Both the position numbers and the translations under genes were made by a program. Positions 3,347 to 16,556 of a stretch of 20,598 nt of DNA are shown piece after piece. A model generated the notes under the pieces. The model searched no databases. It was not told the origin of the DNA and worked only from the letters and a program-made list of their open reading frames with translations. The first letter of the stretch is position 1; each line of letters starts with the position of its first letter. The DNA comes from a virus, in IMG/VR virus record IMGVR_UViG_3300036845_000349, positions 1-20,598 of that record; one strand, written 5' to 3'.

Positions 3347-5157
3347 TTGGCGCTGGCCGGAACCAGCGCAGAAAGCGCCTGTCGCAGCCTGGCGTTGTTC
3401 AGATCGGTCATGGCCTGGTACCAGGGCTGACCCGGCGGCGGCCTGGGGTTGGTCATCGCACCGGCGATCTGCTCATTGGCGCGACCCCCGGCGCGCGCGA
3501 ACGGTCCAATGATTTTCTGGAGCGCCCAGGGCGCGGCGGCGCCTGCTACTACTCCTGCCGGATGCGATGACAGCGCCAGGGCGGTCATTCCAGCCGGGGA
3601 TGTAAGGTTGCTCACCGGCGACGCGGGGTTGGTCTGGGGCGGGGCGTCGGAAATCAACGACGCCTGCGACATAAACCGGTCGAGCTGGCTGTTGGGAACG
3701 CTGCCATATTTCTGCTGTTGGCCATATAGCGCGTCGGCAACCTCGTTCATCGGCAGCGTGCGTCCCTGATATTTGTCGGCCAGCGGATCGAGTGTGCTGG
3801 CCAGCCGGTAGCGATAGCGCGCATCTGTGTGAGCAGTTTGATCATCGGGAGACAGCGAAGAACGGAATGCCTGGTCGAGGTTGGTCATCAATCCGCGGCC
3901 GATTTTGGCCATGTCAGGATTGGCGTTGCCTGCCAGCCGGTCTAGCGGCGAGTCGGTGTTGGTGAGGCTCTGGTAATCGGTGCCGTCCATCTGCCCGGTG
4001 TTACGATTGATGGCGCCGCGGATTTCGCCGATGCGCGCGCGCATCTGCGCCCGGTCGGAGTCGGTCACGCCGGCGGTGGTATCAATGGTGTTTTCCGCCT
4101 GCTGCAGCTGCTGCAACAACCGGTAGCTCTGCATCGCACCCACGTTGTTGGTGTTGGTGATGGCACGCATGTCGGCGCCGGCATCAGTCTTTGCCTGGCC
4201 GATATTGGTCGGTGTCACCCGATTGGTGGTGACCGGGTCACCGGTGTTCGGGTCCAGGTTGAGCTCGCGGAGCATGTTGCCTTGCAGTGCATCCGAAACC
4301 GGCGCTGGGTTGCTATAATGCGACCCCGGTGTGATGTCCGGCGCGGTGAACGGCACACCCTCCTGGCGCGCGGTGTTGGCGATGCTCGCCACCGCGGGGT
4401 CGATCCCGCGGCCGGGCGGTGTCTTGAATGCGCCGCCAGCGCCCTGGATCAGCATATTCGTGGCCATCTCGACCGACGGCTTGGCCCAGTCTGGCGCGTA
4501 GGACGCAACGTTGCCGCCGGCCAAGGCACCAAGACCGCCAAGCAATCCGCCGGCGCCGACACCGAGCGGGCCGAAGCCGCCTAGCTGGGCTCCCGTGGTG
4601 GCGCCCTCCAGCGCGGTCGCGACCTGTGACTCCAGCGGCGTACGTGGCCTCACCGCGTATGGGTTGAAGCCCTTCGGCAGTGCCGATGCGACCTGTGCGA
4701 TGTCGCCCTGTTCGGCCGGCGGCGCGCCTGCGCCGGTGATGTCGGCGCGCTGTTCCGGTGTCATCCGCGGTAATCCGAGCGAGGGTGCTGCCGCGTCCCA
4801 TGCCGCTCCGCCCAATGTCATGAGCGGCCGAAATACCGCCTGGGATGGATTAGTGATGAGATCGAGCGAGTTGACCGTGCCTCGGCCAACAGCCGCTGAC
4901 GCATTGCGCGCCAGGTCGCGCACCGGGGTCTGCGATGGCGGCGGCGGCTCGGAGCCGACATCCTTGAGCGACATCCAGCTGCGCGACATCAGCCCGGTCG
5001 GGCCGGTATCGTCGTTCGTGCCTGAGACGGAACGGTTGCCAACATCGGCATCGGTCAGCAGCGGATTGCCGGTTGTCGGATGGTCGTAGGTCTGGGCGCC
5101 ACTGTCAGCGTCGTCCAGGATCGGATTGCCAGTCGGTGCGGGTGCGATCGCGGCCAT
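3343..5157 (-). CDS. internal virion / DNA-ejection-type protein, 604 aa
   Basis: The last gene of the leftward virion operon; TAATG overlap with the upstream 879-aa gene. The N-terminus carries a repeated motif, TGNPILDDADSG (9-20) and TGNPLLTDADVG (29-40). A long Gly/Ala/Leu-rich, weakly hydrophobic stretch lies at about 188-216 (GGFGPLGVGAGGLLGGLGAL) and a second hydrophobic region at about 524-550 (MTALALSSHPAGVVAGAAAP). Between them is a polar, helical, Gln/Asn-rich region, and the C-terminus is helical. The pairing with a lysozyme-domain protein at the end of a podovirus operon, plus amphipathic Gly-rich segments, suggests a protein ejected into the cell envelope with the DNA. No named domain is recognised, so the role is inferred from context. 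Confidence 0.6.
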   Translation of the reverse strand: MAAIAPAPTGNPILDDADSGAQTYDHPTTGNPLLTDADVGNRSVSGTNDDTGPTGLMSRSWMSLKDVGSEPPPPSQTPVRDLARNASAAVGRGTVNSLDLITNPSQAVFRPLMTLGGAAWDAAAPSLGLPRMTPEQRADITGAGAPPAEQGDIAQVASALPKGFNPYAVRPRTPLESQVATALEGATTGAQLGGFGPLGVGAGGLLGGLGALAGGNVASYAPDWAKPSVEMATNMLIQGAGGAFKTPPGRGIDPAVASIANTARQEGVPFTAPDITPGSHYSNPAPVSDALQGNMLRELNLDPNTGDPVTTNRVTPTNIGQAKTDAGADMRAITNTNNVGAMQSYRLLQQLQQAENTIDTTAGVTDSDRAQMRARIGEIRGAINRNTGQMDGTDYQSLTNTDSPLDRLAGNANPDMAKIGRGLMTNLDQAFRSSLSPDDQTAHTDARYRYRLASTLDPLADKYQGRTLPMNEVADALYGQQQKYGSVPNSQLDRFMSQASLISDAPPQTNPASPVSNLTSPAGMTALALSSHPAGVVAGAAAPWALQKIIGPFARAGGRANEQIAGAMTNPRPPPGQPWYQAMTDLNNARLRQALSALVPASAN

Positions 5158-11664: not shown

Positions 11665-12672
11665 TCAACGACCCGCGATGGCGCGCATGCCGCCGCGCAT
11701 CGGAGAGGACAAGCGTTGCCGCTGTGGGGTGGCCGCGGCCATCAGCGCGGCTGCCGCCTGGCTGCCGGCGTAGATGATCTTGGTGCAGACCAGCAGCGGG
11801 TTCTGCACGCTGAGCCACGCGCCGGAGCCACCGAGCGGCACCAGGTGGTTGTGTGAGCCGTCCGGGTTGATGCCGAGCTGCAGGTTGCCGGAATAAGCGT
11901 TGTTGTGGGCGTGCGCGCCGGCGGCGGCGATGTTGTGCTGGTGCGCGCCCTGGGTGTCGGTGGCGATATTGTGCGCGTGCAGGCCGTCGGTGCTGGTGCC
12001 GTAACTGGCATTGCCGAAGAACGAACTCACCACCGTGGTGCTGCCGAATGGCACGCCGGTGCCGGAGGCCGGGATCGTCACTGTGTGCGCGTGGTTGCCT
12101 TGGTTGTCGGTGCCGCCGCCATGCGCGTGCGCGCCTTGCACATCCTCGGTGTGGCTGTGGGTGCCCTGGACATCCATCGCGTGGGTGTGGTTGCCGCCGG
12201 CTGCGGTGGCGCCGCCGTGGGCGTGGGTGCCGATGGTGCTGGACGTGAGATTGACCGCCGGCAGGTTGGCCTGGGCGATCTGCTGCGACAGCGCGCCGGT
12301 CATCTGGGCGAAGGTGTAGCTAAGCTGATTGCCGTTCTGATCGATCACGGTGCCTGGCCCGATCGCGGCGCGGCCGGGTGTGTTGGGCAGCGCAAAGGTG
12401 GTGGACCCGTCCCCGGCGCCCCAGTAGGTGGAGATGATCGCGAACAGCGCGCTGTAGGTGACGCGGTTGATCAGACGACCGTCGCAGATTAACCAGCCAG
12501 CCGGCGCCTGCGGTCCGGCAAAGTCCAGCATTGCGCCGATCGGCGTCGCGTAGGCGAGGAACGTGTCGAGCGTGCTGGTGTTCTGGTTCAGCAGCGTTCC
12601 CCAGGTGTCACGATCGGCGCCAACGGTCGGTAGGTTGAGCCCGAAGTTCGGTGTGGTGGTGCTGCCGCTCAT
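11665..12672 (-). CDS. tail fibre with collar domain and His-x-His repeats, 335 aa
   Basis: The start is the ATG after the TGAC of the upstream gene; an extension upstream reads another gene out of frame. Domains: residues 1-42 form a short N-terminal anchor (SGSTTTPNFGLNLPTVGADR) shared with fibre 1. Residues 46-106 are a phage tail collar domain (GAMLDFAG, PAGWLICDGRLINRVTYSAL, FALPNTPGRAAIG). Residues 148-276 carry nine H-x-H motifs in N/T/A-H-x-H context, followed by a hydrophobic strand end (NPLLVCTKIIYAG). In T4 gp12-like fibres such His pairs coordinate metal along a trimer axis. The last 30 residues are Ala/Arg-rich. It is likely a receptor-binding or short tail fibre. Confidence 0.8.
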   Translation of the reverse strand: MSGSTTTPNFGLNLPTVGADRDTWGTLLNQNTSTLDTFLAYATPIGAMLDFAGPQAPAGWLICDGRLINRVTYSALFAIISTYWGAGDGSTTFALPNTPGRAAIGPGTVIDQNGNQLSYTFAQMTGALSQQIAQANLPAVNLTSSTIGTHAHGGATAAGGNHTHAMDVQGTHSHTEDVQGAHAHGGGTDNQGNHAHTVTIPASGTGVPFGSTTVVSSFFGNASYGTSTDGLHAHNIATDTQGAHQHNIAAAGAHAHNNAYSGNLQLGINPDGSHNHLVPLGGSGAWLSVQNPLLVCTKIIYAGSQAAAALMAAATPQRQRLSSPMRGGMRAIAGR

Positions 12673-13322: not shown

Positions 13323-14489
13323 TCAGAGGTCCGCGCTGGCAGTGAAAGCTCCGTTGAATGCTGAATTGCCGGTAGCTGTGGCCAAGGCAAAGAATTGCAT
13401 TCCATAAGGGACGGTATTCTGTATGCCGGCGCCTGATGCGTTAGTATAATTCGCACCAGTAATCGTCATAGTTGGACCTGCTCGCATAGTCACAGGAAAC
13501 GCTGAAAAAGCGCCAATAGCCTGGCCGGCTGCGCCGTAGCCATTCCATGCAGCTTGCCCGGTCTGATAAAACCGCTGGCAGTTCGCCAGATCGTTGCGCG
13601 GGTCCAGCTTCTCCAGCGGCGTGGCGCTGCCGCCGAGTTCGAGCTGCACGCCCCAGATGCCGATGGTGCCGCTCTGCACGCCGATACCGCCGGATGGTAT
13701 CGTTGCTGCCGTATTCGATGGGGCGGCGGAAAGCCAGAAGAACAGAGATAGCTGGTCAGTTCCAACAGTTGTGCCGAGTATCTTGCCGGCGGATGATGGG
13801 ATTGTCGCAGTGAAACTATAGCGCGCCCATGCCGTCGTAAGTGCCGGTGTCGTGCCAAATACGCCATAGACTGTCGCTGACGGACTGCCACCTTGGCCGA
13901 AGTTCTGGGAGTAGGACAAGCACAGCCTCGGAGAACCCACCGACGCTTTTGCCCAAAGTGAGATCGTCATGGTCTTACCAGCAAAGCGACGGACACTCTC
14001 CGCTGGTTGTGACTGCTCACATTGGGATGTCGCTGTATTCGTGCCGGCAAACGTGCATTGCATATACGACACGCAGCTTTCATCGCCGATCGCCGCCCGA
14101 TCAGCGTCAGTCGCAGCCACCTGCGACGTGCTGAGTGTGTCGCCTCCCGCCATGTATTGGGTAAACCGATCCAGCGTGTATCCGTTCGCGCTGAACGGCC
14201 CTGCCCCGCGCTGCGCGATGTTCATCAGCCCGTTGTGTATATACGACCGCCCGACGTTATGTTCCGCCGCCGCGCTGCCAGCATCGGCGTATTGCTTGGT
14301 AGCGGCACCGAGTGCGACGGCGGGATCGGCGGCCAGGATCAGCGGGCCGGAGAGCGTGCCGCCGGTGATCGGCAGCGTGGCCCCGGCACCGAGCACGAAC
14401 CACTTCACGCCATCGTACTGATACAGCTCGCCGGAGGGGCCGGTGAACTGCTGGCCGGTGGTCGGGGCGTTGGGAAAGTCGAGCGCCGT
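13323..14489 (-). CDS. tail fibre 2, paralogue of fibre 1; probable ACG start, 388 aa
   Basis: The conserved fibre N-terminus begins at codon ACG (14489-14487), 5 nt after a strong AAGGAGG: (M)ALDFPNAPTTGQQFTGPSG. No ATG, GTG or TTG exists in frame between the upstream in-frame TGA and a GTG at 14408 that would delete this conserved part. Domains: N-terminal attachment-like segment (1-35), one LPxTGGTLSGPL...AATKQYADA fibre repeat (about 40-75), then from about residue 80 a jelly-roll-like carbohydrate-binding region (SYIHNGLMNIAQRGAGP, ESVRRFAGKTMTISLWAKAS, GIWGVQLELGGSATPLEKLD, CQRFYQTG), closing FTASADL. The C-terminal three quarters is paralogous to fibre 1. Likely a receptor- or polysaccharide-binding fibre. 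GC looks lower than in neighbouring virion genes. Confidence 0.7.
   Translation of the reverse strand, partial: TALDFPNAPTTGQQFTGPSGELYQYDGVKWFVLGAGATLPITGGTLSGPLILAADPAVALGAATKQYADAGSAAAEHNVGRSYIHNGLMNIAQRGAGPFSANGYTLDRFTQYMAGGDTLSTSQVAATDADRAAIGDESCVSYMQCTFAGTNTATSQCEQSQPAESVRRFAGKTMTISLWAKASVGSPRLCLSYSQNFGQGGSPSATVYGVFGTTPALTTAWARYSFTATIPSSAGKILGTTVGTDQLSLFFWLSAAPSNTAATIPSGGIGVQSGTIGIWGVQLELGGSATPLEKLDPRNDLANCQRFYQTGQAAWNGYGAAGQAIGAFSAFPVTMRAGPTMTITGANYTNASGAGIQNTVPYGMQFFALATATGNSAFNGAFTASADL
14195..14237 (-). repeat. 43-bp near-identical repeat, copy in fibre 2
   Basis: This segment matches 15384-15426 at 42 of 43 bases (only 14202 differs, T for C). It encodes the HNGLMNIAQRGAGP core of the carbohydrate-binding-like region. 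The flanks are much more diverged, so the block marks either strong constraint or recent recombination between the two fibre genes. Confidence 0.7.
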
Positions 14490-14490
14490 G

Positions 14491-14526
14491 TCAGCCTCCT
14501 TGCGTCAGTTGGGTGGGTTGGACCAT
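14491..14526 (-). other. 11-codon minicistron ahead of fibre 2
   Basis: ATG directly follows the fibre 1 TAG stop and encodes MVQPTQLTQGG before a TGA that ends one base before the ACG of fibre 2. It contains the AAGGAGG ribosome site. It may couple fibre 2 translation to fibre 1 by termination and reinitiation, or be fortuitous. Confidence 0.3.
14495..14501 (-). promoter_or_regulatory. ribosome binding site of fibre 2
   Basis: AAGGAGG is a near-perfect anti-16S match. It lies 5 nt before ACG and about 87 nt before the nearest GTG, so it only makes sense for initiation at or beside the ACG codon. Confidence 0.6.
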
Positions 14527-16098
14527 CTATAAATCCGCCGATGCGGTGAAGGTGTATGCCAGCGTGTTCTGTCCGGTCACGGTGGAAGTCGCGGAAGCAT
14601 AAATGTCGCGTCCGTTATTGCCGGGGCTCATGGCCGCCGAACCGATGTTGACGCTGCCTGCCGAGCCGGTGATCACCAGAGTCGGCGTCCCGCGCATGTT
14701 CACCGGCAGCGAGTAGGGCACGATAATAGTCGTGCCGCTGATCTGATAGCCTGCCGATGTGATCGCTCCGGCATAGAAAAAGCGATTGCACTTGGCCAAG
14801 TCTTGCTGCGGGTCCAGCTTCTCCAGCGGGGTCGCGGTGCTGCCGGCTTCGAGCTGCACGCCCCAGAGGTTGATCCCGCCCGATTGCACGCCGACATTGC
14901 CGGAGCGGACTGCGTTGGTGCTGCCGGACGAATACCAGAAGTTCAGCGCGGTCCAGTCGTTGCCATTGGTGCCCAACGTCTTGCCAGCGGCTGAGGGCAG
15001 AACGAACGTCAGGGAATAGCGGGCATACGCACTGGTCAGAGTAACCGCCTGCCCGTTGCCATCGACTTCCGGCGATGGCGACCCGCCAGTGCCAAAGCCC
15101 TGGTCCAGCGACACGCCTAGTCTTAGTCCGGCGGTGGCATTTGCCCAGAACGAAACTGTCACCGTTTTGCCGGCCAATCGCCGGACGCTTTCGATGCGCT
15201 GCTGAATGGCGGTGAGGGCGGTTGCCGCCGCAGTGCCGACAATCGACACGCCCAGGGTATATCGGCACGCTTCATCGCCAATCGAGCTACGGTCTGCGTC
15301 AACCGCTGCGTTGATGGCGGCACTGGACGTGTCACCACTCAGGTTGATCCACCATCTGTCCGCAGTATAGCTGACGGTGCTCCACGGCCCCGCCCCGCGC
15401 TGCGCGATGTTCATCAGCCCGTTGTGCAGATAGTTTCGTCCGGTATCATGCAGCCCGCCGGCGCTGCCGAGATCGGCCGGCGTCAGCGTGACCGCCCCGG
15501 TGCGCGCGTTGAAGCTGGTGACGCTCACCGTTCCCGCGTTGGAGGCGGCGACCCATTGGCTGCTGTTGGGGTCGGGATACCACACATACAGCTGCGCGTC
15601 GGTGCTGGAGAACCACAGCTCGCCGGGTGACGGCGAAGCGGGGGCACCGTCGCTGACCACCGCGCCAAGCAGCAGGCTGCCGACCCTGGTATCGACGTAG
15701 TTCTTGGTGGCCGCCTGCTGGGCCGCAGAGGGGTCGCCAGCGAGCGTCAGCGCCCCGGTCAGTGATCCGCCCGCGATCGGCAGCACGCTGGCCCAGGCGC
15801 CGCCCAGACGGCCGTAGGCGGTGGTGTTGTTCGGTGCGTCGGTGAACGCGTGCGCATCCACGTAAGCCTTGTTGGCGAGATCGGTGGCGGCGACCGGCGC
15901 GGTGGGTTGGGTGATCACGCCTTTCATGCTGCCGCCGGCGAGCGGCAGGAACAGCGCGCCTGCGCCAGTGGTGGCGAGCAGGCCGTCTACCGCCGTCCAG
16001 TTATCAACAAGGTGATATCCCCAGTTCTCACTATCGGCATTATAGACCGGCAGATAAAAACCATGGTTCGGAGTCGTGGTGTAGTCTGTTCCGCTCAC
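14527..16098 (-). CDS. tail fibre 1 with N-terminal anchor and carbohydrate-binding-like C-terminus, 523 aa
   Basis: The GTG start overlaps the HNH stop (GTGA), with AAGAGGG 7 nt upstream. The resulting MSG N-terminus matches the collar fibre's MSG, which supports this start. Residues 1-42 are the anchor (TTTPNHGFYLPVYNADSENW). Two fibre repeats of type LPxAGGSxxG...A(A/N)K.YVD lie at 51-81 and 106-136. A VTSFNARTGAVTLTPADL motif (193-210) is typical of tail fibres. From residue 221 it has the paralogous jelly-roll-like region: NYLHNGLMNIAQRGAGPW, ESVRRLAGKTVTVSFWANAT, LWGVQLEAGSTATPLEKLD, CNRFF, ending FTASADL. The W-G-V-Q-L-E-x-G-S-x-A-T-P-x-E motif is typical of phage carbohydrate-binding fibre domains. 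A receptor-binding role is likely. Confidence 0.75.
   Translation of the reverse strand: MSGTDYTTTPNHGFYLPVYNADSENWGYHLVDNWTAVDGLLATTGAGALFLPLAGGSMKGVITQPTAPVAATDLANKAYVDAHAFTDAPNNTTAYGRLGGAWASVLPIAGGSLTGALTLAGDPSAAQQAATKNYVDTRVGSLLLGAVVSDGAPASPSPGELWFSSTDAQLYVWYPDPNSSQWVAASNAGTVSVTSFNARTGAVTLTPADLGSAGGLHDTGRNYLHNGLMNIAQRGAGPWSTVSYTADRWWINLSGDTSSAAINAAVDADRSSIGDEACRYTLGVSIVGTAAATALTAIQQRIESVRRLAGKTVTVSFWANATAGLRLGVSLDQGFGTGGSPSPEVDGNGQAVTLTSAYARYSLTFVLPSAAGKTLGTNGNDWTALNFWYSSGSTNAVRSGNVGVQSGGINLWGVQLEAGSTATPLEKLDPQQDLAKCNRFFYAGAITSAGYQISGTTIIVPYSLPVNMRGTPTLVITGSAGSVNIGSAAMSPGNNGRDIYASATSTVTGQNTLAYTFTASADL
15384..15426 (-). repeat. 43-bp near-identical repeat, copy in fibre 1
   Basis: The partner of 14195-14237, in direct orientation about 1.2 kb away, in the same reading frame of the paralogous domain. 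Direct repeats of this length could mediate deletion or gene conversion that produces a chimeric fibre. Confidence 0.7.
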
Positions 16099-16556
16099 AA
16101 CACAGCCCTCTTGGCTGCGTAACTACGTCGATCCCAGATCCGTTTGCACTCTCGGCACTGACGGCTCTTTGGGCCGAAATAGGTGTTGGCCTCGTCGAAC
16201 GGATGTCCATGCTTACAATGCGTCCTGTTCTCCCACCCATTCGTGTTATGAACGAAGCGGCCTTTCGACATCGCGTCATGCATGTTCTCGGTGTGCGTGC
16301 CGAGAAACAGGTGATCGATGTTCACACAAGCCCGCACATCGCAGCGATGACAAACGAACAGGCCATCTGGGATGGTTCCATTGCGCTCCTCCCAGACCAG
16401 ACGATGCGCCCTGATCTGCTTGCCCCCACGGATAGTCTTTGCGTAGCCGGTGCTGTCATAGGTGCCGAGCCATAGCAAACAACCGCTGTTCGGCTCTGGG
16501 ATCACCTGATCTCGCCAAGGAATAGACGGACGGCCCATCTGCATTTTATACATCAT
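16095..16556 (-). CDS. HNH endonuclease, probably free-standing homing-type, 153 aa
   Basis: The start ATG overlaps the upstream stop (TAATG), with AGGTGG 7 nt before it. The protein follows the HNH_3 pattern: HRLVWEERNGTIPDGLFVCH (51-70), CDVRACVNIDHLFLGTHTEN (72-91) and M. Candidate active-site residues are His70, Asn79 and His82. The Cys69/72/77 cluster and the C-terminal CKHGHPF ... CRECKRIWDRR (113-143) look like zinc-binding or DNA-binding elements. The N-terminus (PEPNSGCLLWLGTYDSTGYA) is also typical. Such genes nick or cut DNA and often spread as selfish insertions in phage genomes. It sits between two tail genes and appears visibly more AT-rich than they are. The frame continues upstream without a stop, but that part is antisense-free shadow of the 165-aa gene. 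Confidence 0.85.
   Translation of the reverse strand: MMYKMQMGRPSIPWRDQVIPEPNSGCLLWLGTYDSTGYAKTIRGGKQIRAHRLVWEERNGTIPDGLFVCHRCDVRACVNIDHLFLGTHTENMHDAMSKGRFVHNTNGWENRTHCKHGHPFDEANTYFGPKSRQCRECKRIWDRRSYAAKRAVL

Follow-up and report, generated by a model that had tools for sequence, protein, structure and literature searches.

The infC gene of Escherichia coli, which starts at AUU, is a rare bacterial instance of a start codon outside the NTG group, and the ACG start of AAV VP2 sets the ratio of that virus's capsid proteins. In an E. coli reporter, ACG belongs to the group of codons that give 0.1-1.5% of the output of ATG (PMC6925171), and a directed-evolution variant in which ATG had been changed to ACG still made functional protein in the same species (PMC10449621). 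IF3 counteracts non-canonical starts, and reinitiation is raised by Shine-Dalgarno (SD) sequences and by a short distance between stop and start; in the M13 gene V-gene VII (gV-gVII) reporter, a single C separates the two (PMC2268962). A different solution is found in prfB (RF2), where a +1 ribosomal frameshift is accompanied by an SD-like element six nucleotides upstream of the stop, the slippery site CTTT and the poor terminator context TGAC (PMC12421855). A literature search, with subscription journals mostly outside its reach, found no report of a phage gene that naturally starts at ACG. Bacterial starts outside the NTG group are themselves known, and a phage fibre started at ACG would be a new form of them.

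The gene described here, fibre 2, lies in the virus record IMGVR_UViG_3300036845_000349, whose positions 1 to 20,598 are called the window below. Like infC-type rare starts, it carries a near-cognate codon at a homology-defined start, presumably read by initiator tRNA and expected to give lower output; unlike infC, it mismatches the middle base, is a structural phage gene and gives no suggestion of IF3-level autoregulation. The one-C spacing matches that of M13 gene V-gene VII, and here too upstream translation likely feeds the start and the SD would enhance it. In fibre 2, however, the upstream cistron is an apparent 11-codon scar, the start is ACG, and the SD is strong enough to permit de novo initiation as well. 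The junction shares TGAC and a nearby SD-like element with prfB but differs from it in the distance from SD to stop (1 nt instead of 6 nt), in lacking CTTT and in an unconserved offset. As in AAV VP2, an ACG would start the gene of a virion protein, with dosing as the shared idea; the AAV gene, which uses a eukaryotic scanning mechanism, is unrelated to fibre 2 and serves as an analogy only.

An open fibre frame preceded by ACG

The window encodes an SU10-type major capsid protein (PF17236) that is about one third identical to the capsids of 45-kb Pseudomonas phages, which are LUZ24-like podophages, and of other phages. Its DNA had no match in the INPHARED phage collection, and its close relatives are IMG/VR contigs. 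The features of the fibre region are listed in Table 1. An endonuclease of the HNH_3 family (PF13392, E 1.4e-15) is encoded at 16095-16556 (minus strand), between fibre 1 and a structural gene ending at 16556. The TGA of its gene overlaps the GTG start of fibre 1 (GTGA), so that the fibre 1 start seems to owe its context to a gene that is possibly mobile.

Table 1. Features around the start of fibre 2 (positions in the window)
Feature	Position	Strand	Remarks
Fibre 2 gene, read from ACG	13323..14489	minus	388 codons; N-terminal (M)ALDFPNAPTTGQQFTGPSGELYQYDGVKW domain, then tail-fibre body
ACG, proposed start codon	14487..14489	minus	coincides with the initiator Met position of homologues
Shine-Dalgarno AAGGAGG	14495..14501	minus	5-nt spacer CTGAC to ACG
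Minicistron MVQPTQLTQGG, 11 codons	14491..14526	minus	resembles a small tail-region gene of YQL type cut short after its 5' end
TGA in the fibre 2 frame, upstream of the ACG	14505..14507	minus	confines any frameshift to the last few minicistron codons
GTG, first standard start in the fibre 2 frame	14406..14408	minus	codon 28; within the conserved N-terminal domain
Fibre 1, paralogous fibre body, GTG start	14527..16098	minus	
Small protein MASDYQLVTNFDGV..., full-length, 101 aa	12993..13298	minus	phrog_20370, E 2.5e-10, function unknown; gene type that probably gave rise to the minicistron

Read on the minus strand from 14529, the TAG of fibre 1 (14529-14527) is followed by ATGGTCCAACCCACCCAACTGACGCAAGGAGGC TGA C ACG GCG CTC GAC TTT CCC. 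The minicistron opens with the ATG at 14526 and reads ATG GTC CAA CCC ACC CAA CTG ACG CAA GGA GGC TGA, and one C separates its stop (14493-14491) from the ACG. In the fibre 2 frame, the codons CGC AAG GAG GCT GAC stand between the upstream TGA and the ACG, and the frame then stays open through all 388 codons. The product matches the tail fiber protein family phrog_4492 (E 5.8e-48) and has relatives of 41-54% identity over the full length.

The sequence bears out the description on which the original prediction was built. From the in-frame TGA (14507) to the internal GTG (14408), fibre 2 holds no ATG, GTG or TTG, the strong AAGGAGG (14501-14495) lies 5 nt before the ACG, the 11-codon minicistron terminates where it was said to, and the neighboring junctions at 12672 and 11663 read TGAC-ATG. 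The fibre N-terminus, also said to be in frame with the rest of fibre 2, is so, and homology to M-ALDFPN... places the initiator exactly on the ACG.

Start codons of homologous fibres

The fibre and capsid proteins, an alignment of fibres and DNA patterns served as queries, and several hundred loci were gathered in this way. Among the 82 distinct homologous fibre starts, 64 are ATG, 15 are GTG and one is TTG. The remaining two are ACG and belong to the window and to contig L027 (IMGVR_UViG_3300036828_000276); this is how the comparison of homologous loci for ATG versus ACG, proposed earlier as a check, came out. Both ACG codons align exactly with the initiator codon of M-A-L-D-F-P in the others. 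Apart from L027 and from L306, a contig described below, all relatives use ATG, GTG or TTG, including L002, the nearest to L027. Phage genes that begin with AAGGAGGCTGACATGGC are widespread; in 93 contigs with AAGGAGGCTGACANGGC, L027 supplied the sole ACG among the matches. A search of bacterial genomes with TGACACGGCNCTNGAYTTYCC returned 7 matches, none of them a fibre.

Substitution patterns speak to the status of the stretch that precedes the internal GTG. In codons 2-30, the window and contig L014 differ at 3 first, 4 second and 17 third codon positions, which indicates that this N-terminal domain is coding, at least historically; the selection recorded may predate the ACG. Beyond codon 10, the window and L027 give dN 0.30 and dS 0.55 over 130 codons, values that mean weak constraint, as in a fast-evolving fibre.

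A junction shared by two diverged contigs

The upstream structural genes of the window and L027 are 74-77% identical in DNA. At the junction CCAACTGACGCAAGGAGGCTGACACGGCGCTCGACTTTCCC, ACG included, the two contigs are identical over 41 nt, their second-longest exact match. The 5' halves of the two minicistrons are unlike (ATGGTCCAACCCACC in the window and ATGGCCAGCGAGTAC in L027, encoding MVQPTQL and MASEYQL, respectively), and past the start L027 is nearer L002 (85%, with ATG) than the window (76%). The fibre frame of L027 is open up to the contig end, and the codon corresponding to the internal GTG of fibre 2 is GCG there. The 41-nt identity amid diverged flanks and minicistrons points to a junction of common origin combined with different flanks, an arrangement that may have arisen by recombination or by retention. 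Because an identical junction is present in this second, diverged contig, an isolated base error is unlikely. Since the fibre body of L027 is nearer that of L002, which starts with ATG, the ACG junction common to the window and L027 may reflect recent exchange and not long conservation under selection.

The two fibres, otherwise diverged, also share an identical 50-nt block (ACCAAGCAATACGCC...AACGTCGG; L027 3857-3906 and about 14251-14300, minus strand, in fibre 2). The block is near-identical in L002 as well and is likely a recombination anchor for the swapping of fibre bodies.

The minicistrons read MVQPTQLTQGG in the window, MASEYQLTQGG in L027, MASEYQLVT in L004, MAQPYQLITNTTIVLR in L014 and MAEYQLLTDTTTVQR in L021, each closed by a stop codon. 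All look like the beginning of full-length small proteins that are encoded near fibres, such as the one at 13298-12993 in the window. Relative to its minicistron, the fibre is offset by +1 in the window and L027 and by +2 in L014 and L021, whose fibres have their own standard start. Such varying offsets fit scars rather than a conserved frameshift.

In L003 (2829-2875) and L004 (about 3834-3880), the start of a second, complete fibre is directly preceded by a TAA that closes a 12-codon stub of a fibre N-terminus (MALDFPASPTNG-). This stub is a candidate fibre-exchange scar, parallel to the minicistron of the window, and 5' ends cut short in front of fibres seem to be common scars of recombination.

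A probable ACG start in an unrelated phage

The pattern GGAGN{4,10}ACGGCNYTNGAYTTYCC returned six loci, among which the fibres were L027 and one other, L306 (IMGVR_UViG_3300014969_000478). The start of the L306 fibre reads TTAAGAGGAGGTTGTC-ACG-GCGTTCGATTTCCCA (minus strand, at reverse-complement position 1624), in the arrangement AGGAGG-TTGTC-ACG; its strong SD is partly a matter of ascertainment, as the search pattern itself required GGAG. The gene has 240 codons, which encode AFDFPASPTVGQTFAPVVGVLYTWNGYAW and then a tail protein rich in glycine, and it matches the minor tail protein family phrog_416 (E 6.8e-8). No standard in-frame start lies upstream or within the first 38 codons downstream, the next one being 39 codons on. 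The N-terminal domain is the same as that of the window fibre, while the phage is unrelated, and the L306 fibre found no match in INPHARED. The ACG of L306 is thus a probable second origin, independent of that in the window and L027. It lacks a minicistron of the window type. An unassigned ORF in antisense orientation immediately precedes the L306 fibre, so that translation there may not be coupled to any upstream gene; an HNH endonuclease identity for this ORF was rejected, as Pfam gave no match.

Shine-Dalgarno strength and local structure

Duplex energies were computed against the 16S tail. At -11.4 kcal/mol, the SD-antiSD duplex of fibre 2 is the strongest of the window gene starts checked, and the ACG starts of the window and L027, both with this value, rank 2 and 3 of 81 homologous fibre starts. 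The median energy is -5.0 kcal/mol for ATG and -7.1 for GTG, with -8.4 for the single TTG and -11.4 for ACG (ATG versus GTG and TTG combined, p about 1e-6, with related sequences counted as independent). Within the fibre set the SD is therefore stronger as the start codon weakens, in agreement with the report that, in prokaryotes, weak starts are associated with stronger SDs (PMC5622118).

Two other candidates were set aside. The internal GTG (14408) was rejected as a start, having a weak SD (-2.2) and being unconserved, and its use would cut the conserved domain. A hairpin governing access to the start was likewise rejected, as the region is less structured than its shuffles (z +1.45). A mechanical scan of 3.2 Mb of gathered loci showed no enrichment of ACG behind a strong SD with an open frame relative to other codons in this GC-rich phage DNA, and most of its matches were without homology support. 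For this reason, only homology-anchored cases of ACG are counted here.

Proposed initiation at ACG and its alternatives

The reading that we favor, with a probability of roughly two in three, is that fibre 2 is translated from the ACG behind a near-perfect SD, with likely translational coupling, at a junction left by recombination. Ordinary initiator tRNA would read the ACG (14489-14487) and insert fMet, with the near-perfect SD at ideal spacing enabling initiation despite the poor codon. Ribosomes that finish the minicistron at the TGA, 1 nt upstream, would probably boost the ACG by termination-reinitiation. The junction itself would be a scar, in which a fibre N-terminus became fused to the 5' end of a small gene of YQL type that already carried a strong ribosome site or acquired one; the start codon at the joined junction is now ACG, and at least two diverged phages would have it in common. 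Against this reading stands the fact that ACG is normally a very poor start. Of the options first put forward, initiation at ACG has gained support from the homology-defined start, the strong and well-spaced SD, L027 and L306, whereas the RF2-like frameshift has gained none.

The poor performance of ACG in the E. coli reporter (PMC6925171) would suit a broken start, in which fibre 2 is absent or truncated from the internal GTG and the phage depends on fibre 1, an intact paralogue. We consider this improbable, as the 388-codon frame is intact, the strong SD has been retained and the junction is kept in L027 in front of a frame without a stop as far as that contig extends; a truncated form would depend on the internal GTG, which has a weak SD and is not conserved in L027.

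It is less probable still that the ACG is a sequencing or assembly artefact covering a standard start. In its favor, the contig is metagenomic, and L027 and L306 are the only other homologues that lack a standard start. However, the codon recurs in L027, which is a separate contig whose flanks have diverged, and independently in L306; a residual worry is error correction over the shared 41-nt stretch if both contigs came from one sample series. The ACG is probably a real, weak start.

An RF2-like +1 slip at GGC-TGA-C, fusing the minicistron to fibre 2 (MVQPTQLTQGG-DTALDFP...), is very unlikely: the minicistron has an ATG, the fibre lies in the +1 frame in the window and L027 alike and the poor terminator context (PMC12421855) is present (TGA C, 14493-14490), but the SD ends 1 nt before the TGA, the site reads GGC-T in place of the prfB CTTT, a P-site GGC should re-pair badly on GCT, the TGA at 14507 leaves only the last few codons as a possible site, the offset shifts to +2 in L014 and L021, and L306 has its ACG without such a minicistron.

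Implications for fibre dosage and annotation

Under initiation at ACG, the dose of fibre 2 would lie below that expected from ATG, and the ACG start may plausibly set a fibre ratio. The weak start may be selected, tolerated or en route to loss. A broader idea, which we offer as speculative and unlikely on balance, is that ACG with a near-perfect SD sets a low, adjustable dose of one receptor-binding protein, that this arose at least two times, and that the junction spreads by recombination between phages.

Gene finders commonly take only ATG, GTG and TTG, and such fibres would therefore be annotated about 27 residues short, with the conserved N-terminal domain lost, or missed altogether. If the ACG is truly used, it would be a natural start codon mismatched at its middle base, in a structural gene of a phage, in which compensation by the SD is testable, and a possible means of dosing one of two receptor-binding proteins.
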